NCBI RefSeq assembly: GCF_002243645.1
Contig: NZ_CP017704.1
Span: forward strand, 3,304,001 to 3,368,000
Reading direction: 5' to 3'
Length of the DNA stretch: 64,000 nt
Origin: Peribacillus simplex NBRC 15720 = DSM 1321
GTDB lineage: Bacteria > Bacillota > Bacilli > Bacillales > DSM-1321
Shown one piece after another: positions 2,974-6,657 of this stretch. Under the pieces are notes generated by a model that ran no database searches, had not been told where the DNA came from, and saw only the letters and a program-made list of their open reading frames with translations. Numbering within the stretch: position 1 is the first letter of the stretch; each line of letters opens with the position of its first letter. A program made the position numbers and the translations under genes.

Positions 2974-3076
2974 AATGAGGGAGGTTCTTTTAATTAGACC
3001 TCACACTAATGACATATATAGGTTGCAAGATTTGTTAATGATTCATTTAAGCTTAAAGTAAAAGGGGAAATTCTAT

Positions 3077-4048
3077 ATGATTTTGGTCGTTGGCGGTGCA
3101 GGATATATTGGAAGTCATCTTGTAAAAGAGTTAGTGAATACTGAAGAGGTAGTCATTCTGGATAATCTCTCTACCGGTTTTCGTTCGCTGGTCGATTCGA
3201 AGGCCATCTTGGTGGAAGGAAATTTAGGTGACGAAGCGGTTTTGAATGAAATATTCCTTAAATATCCCATTAAAGCTGTTATGCACTTTGCCGCTAATAG
3301 CTTAGTTGGTGAGTCTGTTCAAGATCCTTATAAATACTATGAAAATAATGTAGGTGCAACTCTTACATTATTGAATACCATGCTCAAGCATGATGTTAAG
3401 AATTTCATTTTTTCATCAACGGCAGCTACATACGGGATACCGAATGTTGATATGATTGATGAAGATCAGCCAACCAATCCGATTAATCCATATGGTCGCT
3501 CGAAACTGATGGTAGAGCAGATCTTAGGAGACTTTGCAAAGGCATATGGACTCCATTATGTCGTCCTGCGTTACTTTAATGCGGCCGGAGCACATGCATC
3601 GGCAGAAATCGGTGAAAGCCATGATCCGGAAACACACCTGATTCCGATCATTTTACAGCATTTATTAGGTCAACGTGAGAAGATTTCCGTGTTTGGTACG
3701 GACTATGACACAGAAGATGGCACTTGCATTCGTGATTATATTCATGTAACGGATTTAGCTCAAGCTCATATAATCGCGCTTCAAGCCCTATTATCCGGGA
3801 AGAAGGATACGGCCACCTACAATCTTGGGAATGGAAAAGGGTTTTCGGTTAAGGATGTAATCGACACTTGTGAAAAAGTCACAGGAGTGAAACCGACCAT
3901 AGAGTATGCAGACCGTCGCCCTGGAGATCCAGCCCGTCTGGTTGCTTCGGCTAATAAGATATATGAAGAACTTGGATGGAAAGCGTCGATAGATTTGGAA
4001 GAGATCATTGAAAGTGCGTGGAAATGGCATAAATCTCAAATGAATTAA
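3077..4048 (+). CDS. galE: UDP-glucose 4-epimerase
   Basis: 323 residues, normal length for GalE. It interconverts UDP-glucose and UDP-galactose with bound NAD+. The N-terminus has the GGAGYIGSH dinucleotide-binding loop (G7, G10, G13). The catalytic region shows SSTAATYG near 113-120 and the YxxxK pair in NPYGRSK (Y139, K143). The C-terminal half carries RYFNAAGA and RRPGDPARL, typical of extended SDR epimerases. The start ATG follows AAAGGGGAA. It lies just after the glycosyltransferase fusion on the same strand, so it probably serves cell-wall glycopolymer synthesis rather than galactose catabolism; no galK or galT is in view. The strong hairpin at 4080-4125 ends the unit. Confidence 0.93.
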   Translation: MILVVGGAGYIGSHLVKELVNTEEVVILDNLSTGFRSLVDSKAILVEGNLGDEAVLNEIFLKYPIKAVMHFAANSLVGESVQDPYKYYENNVGATLTLLNTMLKHDVKNFIFSSTAATYGIPNVDMIDEDQPTNPINPYGRSKLMVEQILGDFAKAYGLHYVVLRYFNAAGAHASAEIGESHDPETHLIPIILQHLLGQREKISVFGTDYDTEDGTCIRDYIHVTDLAQAHIIALQALLSGKKDTATYNLGNGKGFSVKDVIDTCEKVTGVKPTIEYADRRPGDPARLVASANKIYEELGWKASIDLEEIIESAWKWHKSQMN

Positions 4049-4079
4049 AGGCCCCTTGGGGCTTGATAGTCGTTTCAGA

Positions 4080-4125
4080 CTGTAGACAAACTCGAAGAAA
4101 AGCGAGTTTGCCTACAGTTTTTTTA
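4080..4125 (+). terminator. Rho-independent terminator after galE, part of repeat family 1
   Basis: A 15-bp stem with one mismatch (CTGTAG-A-CAAACTCG pairs with CGAGTTTG-C-CTACAG), an 8-base loop, then TTTTTTT. The same hairpin occurs in reverse orientation after brnQ (41882-41930). Confidence 0.88.
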
Positions 4126-4264
4126 TTTGAAGAAAGTTGCAGTTGATTTCAGAAATCCGCTTTCTTTCCGCCGACTGTCCGCCATGCCTCATCAAAGCAA
4201 GCGCCTGCGGGGTCTCGGCTAGCCATTAATTCGGCAGGAGTGTCGCAAATTTCTTCAATCCATT
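4080..4264 (-). repeat. Dispersed intergenic repeat family 1, copy A
   Basis: Reads in reverse complement the same element as 20850-20975, 21052-21236 and 52170-52310. Diagnostic words on the minus strand are GAAATTTGCGACACTCCTGC, GACCCCGCAGGCGCTTG and GGAAAG..AGCGGATTTCTG. The end next to galE holds the terminator hairpin. No protein is encoded. The element is about 180 bp and probably acts as a mobile or duplicated intergenic unit that brings its own terminator. Confidence 0.8.
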
Positions 4265-4336
4265 GAGTTTTCATTTCATATAACACAGTGAAAATCAGGT
4301 AGTATAACCAAGTTATTTTAAAATCATGGTCCGCGG

Positions 4337-4404
4337 TTATTCGCCCTACCCCACACTTTATTCGACCGTTCACGAATTTATTCGGGCTTCACACACTTTA
4401 TTCG
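4337..4404. repeat. Four phased TTATTCG direct repeats
   Basis: TTATTCG occurs at 4337, 4358, 4378 and 4398, that is every 20-21 bp or about two helical turns. The last three are TTTATTCG. The array ends six bases before the stop codon of the minus-strand ATP-grasp gene. Even phasing suggests a protein-binding array or a decayed tandem repeat; no function is known to me. Confidence 0.6.
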
Positions 4405-4409
4405 ACATT

Positions 4410-5234
4410 CTAAGCTTCCAGTGCTTTCTGGATTGATTTTTTCATGGCTTTTACAAAATTCCGGCGTGTTTCATCGGTTAATTCCAACAGGGAAAGATAG
4501 GGATTTAAATCTTCTAGTTCTACTAATAAAAGTTCACCTTGCTCATTCCGGCACGCATCAACTCGTTGGATGCCCCAATCAAGATTGTTCCATTCAATAA
4601 ATCGTTTAGCAAAAGCCAGATCTGCTTCAGTAGGTATATATTCTTCTAATTCCCATCTTTTCTCTTTATCTGGAGCATAAAGGGCATACTGAAATTCCAT
4701 ATCGATAAAATAAAATGAGACCTCATACTCAAAGTTGATAAATGGCTGTACCAATATGTTCTTTGATACCGAATCCATTTTATCTCCCAATTCTTCTTTC
4801 GTGGAAAATTCCAAACCGATGGAATCCGCTCCATCTTTCGGCTTTACTATATACGTTTCCACATTAGGAAGTTTATTTAAAGATTCAAGTGTATCGATGG
4901 TCGGAATGACAGGGAATTGAGCATTCGTCAGTTCAATTAAGTATTCTTTCCCGTTCATATCAGCCTTTCCAACAAATGAATTGTACGTTTTCAAATAACC
5001 AGCAGCCACTCTATTACGGAATGCTAGATACTTATCTTTAAAATTCGCGACTGGACCTGCATTTCGAAATACGATTAGGTCAAAATCCTTTTCAAACGTT
5101 TCAATGTCTTCAGGATGGCAAAGTACTAACTGAAAATCTTCTCTAAGCTTCGAGGTAAGGAACAAATCCTCCTCATAATAATTTCTTCCTTTTGCTTCAT
5201 AGTATAAATCCGTTACGAATAATAGTGTCTGCAT
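4410..5234 (-). CDS. ATP-grasp domain protein controlled by a T-box
   Basis: 274 residues from the ATG at 5234 (MQTLLFVTDLYY), preceded by GGAG at a short 2-3 nt spacing. A longer reading frame from 5330 would run through the T-box terminator and is rejected. The N-terminal third looks like a pre-ATP-grasp fold (FDLIVFRNAGPV). The middle has YIVKPKDGADSIGLEF and ILVQPFINFEYEVSFYFI, fitting the ATP-binding lysine loop and hinge. Near the C-terminus, VDACRNEQGELLLVELEDLNP supplies acidic and Asn residues for Mg-ATP. The family joins a carboxylate to an amine through an acyl phosphate. The substrate is unknown, but the tRNA-sensing leader points to an amino acid as substrate or product. It has no operon partner. 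Confidence 0.8.
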   Translation of the reverse strand: MQTLLFVTDLYYEAKGRNYYEEDLFLTSKLREDFQLVLCHPEDIETFEKDFDLIVFRNAGPVANFKDKYLAFRNRVAAGYLKTYNSFVGKADMNGKEYLIELTNAQFPVIPTIDTLESLNKLPNVETYIVKPKDGADSIGLEFSTKEELGDKMDSVSKNILVQPFINFEYEVSFYFIDMEFQYALYAPDKEKRWELEEYIPTEADLAFAKRFIEWNNLDWGIQRVDACRNEQGELLLVELEDLNPYLSLLELTDETRRNFVKAMKKSIQKALEA

Positions 5235-5281
5235 GACTCCTGCACCAGCTTTCCCGTTATTTTCATTGATTAGGATAAAAA

Positions 5282-5565
5282 CAAAAAATCCCGTCTCATT
5301 AAGAGACGAGATTTGAACTCGCGGTACCACTCTTGTTTAATAAAATGCTTCGACAGCACATTACTACCCTTTACAAACGCACAATAATACGTTGTCCTAT
5401 ATAACGGGGGAAACCGGTAAAGCTTACTAAAGATTCGGCTTTACTTCTCAGGGATGATCTTCGGTTATATTCTGGACACTGGCTTTCAGCAAAGCACCAG
5501 CTCTCTTTGGAACAGAAACTATAACGTACTCCTTCCCTTCATGGAATTTTACAATTAGATGAATT
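5282..5565 (-). promoter_or_regulatory. T-box riboswitch upstream of the ATP-grasp gene
   Basis: Minus-strand leader. From 5' to 3' it shows an AG/GNUG region (AAAGAGAGCTGGTG, then GCTGAAAGCCAG) near 5475-5515, the Stem I 3' side CGAAGATCATCCCTGAG at 5447-5463, the T-box AGTGGTACCGCG at 5320-5331, and a terminator hairpin (AATCTCGTCTC / GAGACGGGATT) with a T-run at 5282-5312. T-boxes read the charging state of one tRNA and allow read-through when it is uncharged. The specifier is most likely ATC (isoleucine) by alignment with the NNN-ATC pattern; GAT is the alternative. Module identity is firm; specificity is tentative. Confidence 0.88.
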
Positions 5566-5699
5566 TGAGTAATTATACAATAGTCAGAAAATTAAATCAA
5601 TGGTTCTTTCACTGAGTATAGGACGAAAAAGGGATTTTGATTGAGATATAGAATTACTATTCAGGAGAAGCACCATTCATTTAATAGGAGATGTTAGAT

Positions 5700-6590
5700 T
5701 TGAAAATGGTAAGGGTTTTTCATTACGATGCGTTCAGCAGTAAACCGAATAAAGGAAATCCAGCAGGTGTGGTTTTAGATGCGGATGGACTGACGGAAAA
5801 GGAAATGCAGGATATAGCGCTGAAGGTGGGGTTTAATGAAACCTCTTTTCCCATGGAGTCCGATATTGCCGATCTTAGAATCCGTTATTTTACACCAGGA
5901 CACGAAATGAATCTTTGCGGACACGCGACAATGGCTACCATCCATGCACTGAAGACCAGGGGATTATTGGATAAAGATGAGCTGATGATTGAAACAGGAG
6001 CGGGAATATTGCCAATCAAGATCCATACGACGGCTGATCAAGAGATATACATTACGATGAAGCAGGCCGCGCCACAGTTTGAAGCGTTTAACGGAGATAA
6101 GGGGGGCTTAGCCAGTTCCCTGGGCCTTGATATAGAAGATCTGGAAAGTGAATTACCTATTGTTTATGGAAGTACAGGTTTATGGACTTTACTGGTTCCG
6201 GTAAAAGAACGGAATTCATTCAAAAGGATGAAGGCGAACAATAACCTGTTTCCGCAATTATTAAAGGAAATGCCAAGAGCTTCTGTTCATCCCTTTTGCT
6301 TGGAAGCCTATGATAAGGATGCCCATATGCATGCCCGGCATTTTTCCTCGCCATTTTCAGGTACGCTTGAGGACCCGGTTACAGGAACTGCTTCAGGTGT
6401 AATGGGGGCTTATTATGCAAAATACATAAAGGATGATCTTGAAGATGAAGTGCACCTGTTAATCGAACAGGGACATGAAATCGGAAAGGATGGCAGAGTT
6501 CGCGTTACGGCTACCAAAAACCATGACACATATGATATTGAAATCACCGGGAATGCTGTCTACGTTAAAGAATTTGAAGTGGAAGTCTAA
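5700..6590 (+). CDS. PhzF family isomerase/epimerase-like protein
   Basis: 296 residues from TTG 5700, which sits 9 nt after AATAGGAG; the upstream ATG at 5691 abuts that site and ATG 5706 is also possible. The family has a two-lobed diaminopimelate-epimerase-like fold. Visible hallmarks are the N-terminal FHYDAFS and GNPAGVVL, the conserved Glu region [19 protein letters not shown], and the C-terminal DPVTGTASG loop. PhzF enzymes isomerise small acids, but most Bacillus members have no known substrate. It is monocistronic, facing a convergent minus-strand unit. A shorter paralogue lies at 24428-25213. Confidence 0.87.
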
Positions 6591-6657
6591 AGGTTCATGC
6601 AGGGGAGGATGGGCGGTTGAATGTTATTCATATCTGAAATGGTATAGTGAACACGTA

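Follow-up and report, generated by a model that had tools for sequence, protein, structure and literature searches.

We find that, in the window (the whole 64,000-nucleotide stretch of DNA that we analysed from the soil bacterium Peribacillus simplex), a T-box leader with an isoleucine specifier stands directly in front of a lone gene for a predicted ATP-grasp ligase. Our preferred reading, to which we assign a probability of roughly 0.72, is that the two make up a self-contained mobile unit, in which a T-box switched on by uncharged tRNA-Ile would control an accessory metabolic or protective ATP-grasp ligase. Taken by itself the T-box is typical of its class; what is unusual is the target, together with its mobility. 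We hold regulation by an isoleucine T-box with high confidence, and infer its working in vivo.

Positions 4410–5565 hold the leader and the gene (Table 1). The ORF (274 codons) runs on the minus strand from an ATG at 5234 to a stop at 4410, and besides this gene there is no minus-strand ORF of at least 60 codons between the terminator and the gene, in agreement with the first-pass annotation, which had seen a lone gene under the T-box. The putative promoter precedes the T-box by ∼20 nt; a scan returned 5 such sites compared to 4.2 expected in shuffles, and the argument for this promoter is its position, not its score. Promoter, T-box, terminator and gene are contiguous, which makes it very improbable that the leader serves another transcript, a concern raised in that annotation. 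The flanks, named by eye, carry galE, glycosyltransferase, phzF-like and methyltransferase genes, of which the PhzC-PhzF assignment is backed by Pfam. Immediately past the ATP-grasp gene (4337–4404) there are short CGAATAA repeats spaced by ∼20 bases, and the corresponding place in Bacillus sp. BA3 (L042, 3862–4185) has ∼7 repeats of a 42-bp unit. Elsewhere in the window, a c-di-AMP riboswitch (RF00379, 13454–13596, minus strand, 72.9 bits) is found upstream of genes that encode, by eye, a Trk-type potassium transporter membrane protein and a TrkA-like protein (13308–11280), which is a common arrangement.

Table 1. Features of the T-box and ATP-grasp locus, in window coordinates
Feature	Position	Strand	Basis
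Promoter TTGATT-17-TATAAT, sigma-A type	5572..5600	-	10 of 12 consensus positions, 17-nt spacer
T-box leader RF00230 (Stem I, Stem II/III, antiterminator with T-box sequence)	5299..5551	-	cmscan
Specifier codon AUC (isoleucine), specifier loop GAAG-AUC-A	5456..5458	-	Register of T-boxes with known amino acid
Antiterminator helices and T-box bulge (AGUGGUACCGCG...)	5299..5336	-	Predicted fold, -7.7 kcal/mol
Intrinsic terminator, predicted to compete with antiterminator	5286..5314	-	12-bp stem, 5-nt loop, T-rich tail
Predicted ATP-grasp ligase gene, 274 aa, sole gene of transcription unit	4410..5234	-	ORF, DcsG-like profile and fold
Gain/loss segment (gene, leader, -10 box)	4268..5590 (left border approximate)		blastn against empty-site genomes

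The leader matches the Rfam T-box model over its full length (RF00230, model positions 1–219 of 219), scoring 138.4 bits where the gathering threshold is 93 (E = 9.8e-31). This bears out the first-pass description of a full T-box leader ahead of the ATP-grasp gene; the poor model score that had been named as a danger to it did not occur. The T-box sequence as first read, AGUGGUACCGCG, is present, as is the terminator hairpin, which is followed by TTTGTTTTTA. Terminator (−16.4 kcal/mol) and antiterminator are predicted to have one strand in common and are thus mutually exclusive structures before the gene. Simple minimum-energy folding does not recover the T-box fold from the leader (z −2.1) and was left out of the evidence; it is common for minimum-energy folding to miss the functional fold of such switches.

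There are 22 T-box matches in the 5.65-Mb genome, in which we took the specifier register to be the three bases just ahead of the one that closes the specifier loop on its 3' side. At the ten T-boxes whose neighbouring genes were identified by curated models (nine aminoacyl-tRNA synthetases and the branched-chain amino acid carrier brnQ), this register yields the expected codons: UAC for tyrS, UCC for serS, GUC for valS, CUC for leuS, CGC for argS, UUC for pheS, GCU for alaS, GGC for glyQ, and AUC for both ileS and brnQ. The specifier side of the ATP-grasp leader reads ...ACCGAAG-AUC-A-UCCCUGAG, and the same register (GAAG-AUC-A-UCCC) gives AUC; because this register gives the right amino acid at known genes, we assign the specifier to isoleucine, which had been the first guess. 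The codon matches the tRNA-Ile(GAU) of the genome, which has an A73-CCA end, and the leader UGGU is complementary to, and predicted to pair with, its ACCA. It is well supported that the T-box would sense isoleucine tRNA and serve the ATP-grasp gene alone. In its motifs, its terminator/antiterminator design, its AUC codon and its match to tRNA-Ile, the leader resembles the transcriptional T-boxes with isoleucine specifiers that precede ileS and brnQ, but it differs from other T-boxes in its target, an uncharacterised ATP-grasp protein; the remaining T-box neighbours of the genome are, by eye, synthetase, biosynthesis or transport genes. The same genome has tandem T-boxes (L002/L004 and L016/L017) before trpE and thrS-like genes, both named by eye.

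We aligned 20 orthologous leaders, from Peribacillus, Lysinibacillus, Ureibacillus, Caryophanon, Bacillus and two genomes labelled Paenibacillus. The AUC specifier is invariant in all 20, the antiterminator helices are invariant or near-invariant, and standard pairs fill 89.9% of the pair cells. The covariation score (0.071) exceeded that of all 500 shuffles and of all six slid versions (0.027–0.039). Changes on both sides were found at 4 of 47 pairs (11 cells) compared to 2.7 expected, with 65 of 500 shuffles as high, a control that is less clear because many pairs are invariant. The leader is 88% identical between the window and Lysinibacillus sphaericus, compared to the ∼39% predicted for unconstrained sites, a rough Jukes-Cantor figure based on how far the gene next to it has diverged at synonymous sites (dS 1.24); the dN/dS of the ATP-grasp gene is 0.07 in this comparison and ranges from 0.07 to 0.13 overall. 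Since the leader changes far more slowly than synonymous sites and dN/dS is low, leader and protein are both under purifying selection, and the isoleucine control is maintained.

The locus varies in its presence among close relatives. In blastn comparisons of window positions 3001–6600 with the galE–phzF interval of five collinear Peribacillus genomes (G008, G014, G015, G026, G027), the flanking galE and phzF-like genes are present at 91–95% DNA identity, without the ∼1.3-kb segment. Leader and gene occur together in unrelated flanks in other Peribacillus species, Lysinibacillus, Ureibacillus and Caryophanon. Judged by these comparisons, leader and gene are gained and lost as one mobile unit. 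Close homologues of the window protein are found in Peribacillus species. Damaged second copies (L036, L037, L038) are also present in Peribacillus genomes, with in-frame stops in two relatives and as a fragment in a third. They occupy a different site, preceded by a strong terminator hairpin and by a stretch with GGTACC, possibly a T-box in decay.

The ATP-grasp gene is rare in every sample: we found it in 14 of the 43 genomes that represent the family, in 5 of 397 for the order and in 2 of 398 for the phylum, as well as in 12 of 295 Paenibacillaceae, 4 of 349 genomes of the Galbibacter family and 1 of 245 of a clostridial order; these samples overlap and each includes the genome used as its centre. 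Homologues are also found on Paraclostridium, Streptomyces and Deinococcus plasmids, in a contig of the archaeon Methanobrevibacter, and as cargo in two Paenibacillus viral contigs (L083, 5001–5825; L084, 3646–4470), in which the neighbours are of phage type, including, by eye, an integrase and a terminase beside the gene in L084. The phage records that we searched gave no match to the ATP-grasp protein, none of 24 family members matched the PADLOC anti-phage defence models, and the family had no match among the PHROG families. One of the viral contigs also has a FuFi-1 RNA match (L083, 7430–7679, minus strand, 65.2 bits, cut-off 59.6). Homologues that are >50% identical to the window protein occur across phyla, which means strong constraint, recent spread, or both.

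The protein is well supported, by profile and predicted structure, as a probable ATP-grasp carboxylate-amine ligase of DcsG/RimK-like type. No Pfam model scored above its cut-off with the window protein, PF02655 (ATP-grasp_3) being just under (21.2 versus 23.2). A profile of 24 homologues found one solved structure, DcsG (PDB 6jil; 27.5 bits, E 1.7e-5). Similarly, for an AlphaFold2 model of the window protein (pLDDT 88.7, pTM 0.87), DcsG was the best fold match (Z 20.8, rmsd 3.4 Å over 262 residues, 22% identity), followed by RimK and LysX (Z 19–20), synapsin, ArgX, glutathione synthetase and D-Ala-D-Ala ligase. The ATP-grasp fold thus aligns at Z 17–21 over 229–262 residues, and the conserved ATP/Mg residues are in place: K96, K131, D226, E239, E241 and N244 are invariant in homologues and, from the DcsG alignment and the general features of the fold, presumably include the expected ATP/Mg positions. 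R57-N58-G60, R193-W194 and D242-N244 are invariant as well, and would be expected around the acceptor site if the enzyme is analogous to DcsG and RimK.

Although DcsG is the best match in both sequence and fold, and has the KPxDG, RVD and ExE motifs in common with the window protein, the last motif has Glu in DcsG and Asn (N244) here, identity is only 20-odd %, and there is no dcs-like cluster. We rejected an identity as D-cycloserine synthetase, for which NF058666 gave 29.5 bits compared to a curated equivalog cut-off of 360, and the genomic context likewise speaks against DcsG itself, since the dcs biosynthetic cluster is absent around the gene and no conserved cluster was found in relatives. 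The reaction of DcsG is an intramolecular cyclisation, not a two-substrate ligation. RimK, LysX, ArgX, glutathione synthetase and D-Ala-D-Ala ligase share the ATP-grasp fold (Z 17–20), but at 12–17% identity and with no sequence-profile match, and no partner protein such as LysW was seen near the gene. The first-pass annotation had proposed an amino-acid ligase or modification reaction linked to isoleucine; isoleucine sensing and the ligase fold stand, while isoleucine, or any amino acid, as the substrate goes beyond what these results prove. An enzyme that counters an agent blocking the charging of tRNA-Ile, which that interpretation did not include, is equally compatible.

We found no conserved partner gene across the neighbourhoods of homologues, which differ between lineages. 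An aldo/keto reductase gene begins 7 bases behind the ATP-grasp gene in two Bacteroidota (L070, 3001–4786; L108, 1483–3319), and in these the two genes are likely to form an operon. Other neighbours are RidA (L069/L072), an aminotransferase (L055/L066), a member of the arginase family (L109) and a Glu/Leu/Phe/Val dehydrogenase (L065). We judged single pairings of this kind too inconsistent to serve as pathway clues.

When the ATP-grasp leader is aligned with the other 21 T-boxes found in the genome, that of brnQ comes closest (score 68.5; next, 25.5). T-boxes have been described as modules picked up by new genes, often transporters, with ∼8% of them standing before genes of unknown or unrelated function (PMC2494555). 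The simplest reading of the alignment is that the ATP-grasp gene recruited a brnQ-type isoleucine T-box. The T-box is found only in a Bacillaceae/Caryophanaceae clade and a few Paenibacillaceae. In a tree of 49 proteins, the T-box-bearing genes group with some that are T-box-less, and ∼four changes of state are needed; a single gain followed by losses is plausible, with several forks of the tree open. A permissive-cut-off search of 21 homologue loci uncovered as hidden T-boxes only the intact leader of L077, in the same place as that of L048, and a degenerate leader in L087 (genome G955, 1326–1484; 46 bits). In the latter, Stem I (including AUC) and the terminator remain, but an internal deletion has removed Stem II/III along with the T-box sequence. 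The gene behind this leader is intact, and the leader, by its design, should be locked off. Loss is also seen in the P. lautus type (L045, L085), which has no T-box but still has the spacer that precedes the ATG. The more distant homologues, from Clostridia, Bacteroidota, Streptomyces, Deinococcus, Paenibacillus amylolyticus and the viral contigs, gave no motif or no model match for a T-box (the Streptomyces loci were judged on the T-box motif and not by covariance model). T-box-less homologues occur in several other lineages at 50–76% identity; therefore, isoleucine control is the add-on of one lineage and does not define the role of the enzyme.

In the mechanism that we propose, a housekeeping promoter would drive the T-box leader, which would terminate transcription as long as tRNA-Ile(GAU) is charged. 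If uncharged tRNA-Ile accumulates, through isoleucine shortage or inhibition of IleRS, its anticodon would read AUC and its free ACCA end would pair with UGGU, so that the antiterminator would win and the ATP-grasp gene would be transcribed. The product, being of DcsG/RimK/LysX type, would most likely phosphorylate a small carboxylate with ATP and either couple it to an amine or close it upon itself. Because there are no fixed partner genes and the gene is carried as cargo, the enzyme would act alone, on a small molecule present in or taken up by the cell, as an accessory ligase required once the charging of tRNA-Ile breaks down, and its substrate may be related to the charging of isoleucine.

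Three readings of the substrate, protective, biosynthetic and independent of isoleucine, carry similar weight. If the enzyme gives inducible protection, it would inactivate an isoleucine antimetabolite or an IleRS inhibitor by ATP-dependent conjugation, and the uncharged tRNA-Ile that the toxin causes would induce the gene. The rarity of the gene in all genome samples counted (only 5/397 of the order, for instance), its stand-alone position among varying neighbours, its plasmid copies (Paraclostridium, Streptomyces, Deinococcus) and two Paenibacillus viral contigs, and the >50% identity across phyla are as expected from protection. There is also a precedent in the T-box before a mupirocin-resistant IleRS (PMC2494555), an isoleucine T-box ahead of a protective accessory gene, although that product is a tRNA synthetase and this one a predicted ATP-grasp enzyme. 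The gene is not linked to a producer cluster, however, it matches no PADLOC or PHROG family, and most homologues have no T-box, which leaves inducible protection rather unlikely. We consider its most specific form to be quite unlikely: a mobile single-gene cassette giving resistance to a natural toxin (an isoleucine antimetabolite or an inhibitor of isoleucyl-tRNA synthetase) that itself induces the gene via uncharged tRNA-Ile. If instead the enzyme is biosynthetic, it would ligate isoleucine or a precursor to another group, giving a dipeptide or modified metabolite needed when isoleucine is short. The general rule that the specifier matches the function of the gene (PMC2494555), the DcsG/LysX/ArgX-like fold and the occasional neighbours with amino-acid chemistry (L055/L066, L069/L072, L065) point in this direction, but consuming isoleucine during its scarcity makes little sense, the neighbours vary between lineages, and in Peribacillus no partner pathway adjoins the gene; we view a biosynthetic role with about as much doubt as inducible protection. 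A lone, mobile gene carried by plasmids and prophages fits an accessory or protective role better than that of an isoleucine-consuming ligase.

The isoleucine link may be only one of timing, because most of the family is without a T-box. A T-box could have been captured from a brnQ-type gene by rearrangement, giving useful expression at times of starvation to an enzyme unrelated to isoleucine. That the leader is closest to that of brnQ, and that the T-box is limited to one region of the tree, lost in the P. lautus type (L045/L085) and internally deleted in L087, agrees with regulatory capture, which we regard as possible if doubtful: AUC and the fold have been kept in 20 leaders while synonymous sites are near saturation, and the T-box has been kept in several genera at differing genomic sites. 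That the leader belongs to another transcript, or is a relic in decay, is very improbable and largely refuted. Relic states are seen in relatives (L087) and none at the window locus, where the leader is constrained and promoter, full T-box, terminator and gene form an unbroken series. The preferred reading, an accessory metabolic or protective ligase in a mobile unit under T-box control, has to accommodate two points: homologues outside the T-box lineage are without the T-box, so that the role need not involve isoleucine, and the likeness to ligase folds leaves the reaction unfixed, as the best match, DcsG, catalyses a cyclisation and not a two-substrate ligation.

T-boxes belong to a small set of regulatory elements from which the amino acid that concerns a gene can be read, and have been used to assign functions to transporters and hypothetical proteins. 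A literature search for a T-box with an ATP-grasp gene found no paper, and the main texts of the T-box papers are without this gene, which their supplementary listings may include. The constrained isoleucine specifier points to an enzyme family to which no function has been assigned, and which moves as cargo and is present in an archaeon as well as in several phyla of bacteria. If the gene is a resistance cassette, it would be a tRNA-sensing resistance gene other than a tRNA synthetase. The leader thus makes an anonymous ligase directly testable, and may lead to a new resistance or amino-acid conjugation reaction.
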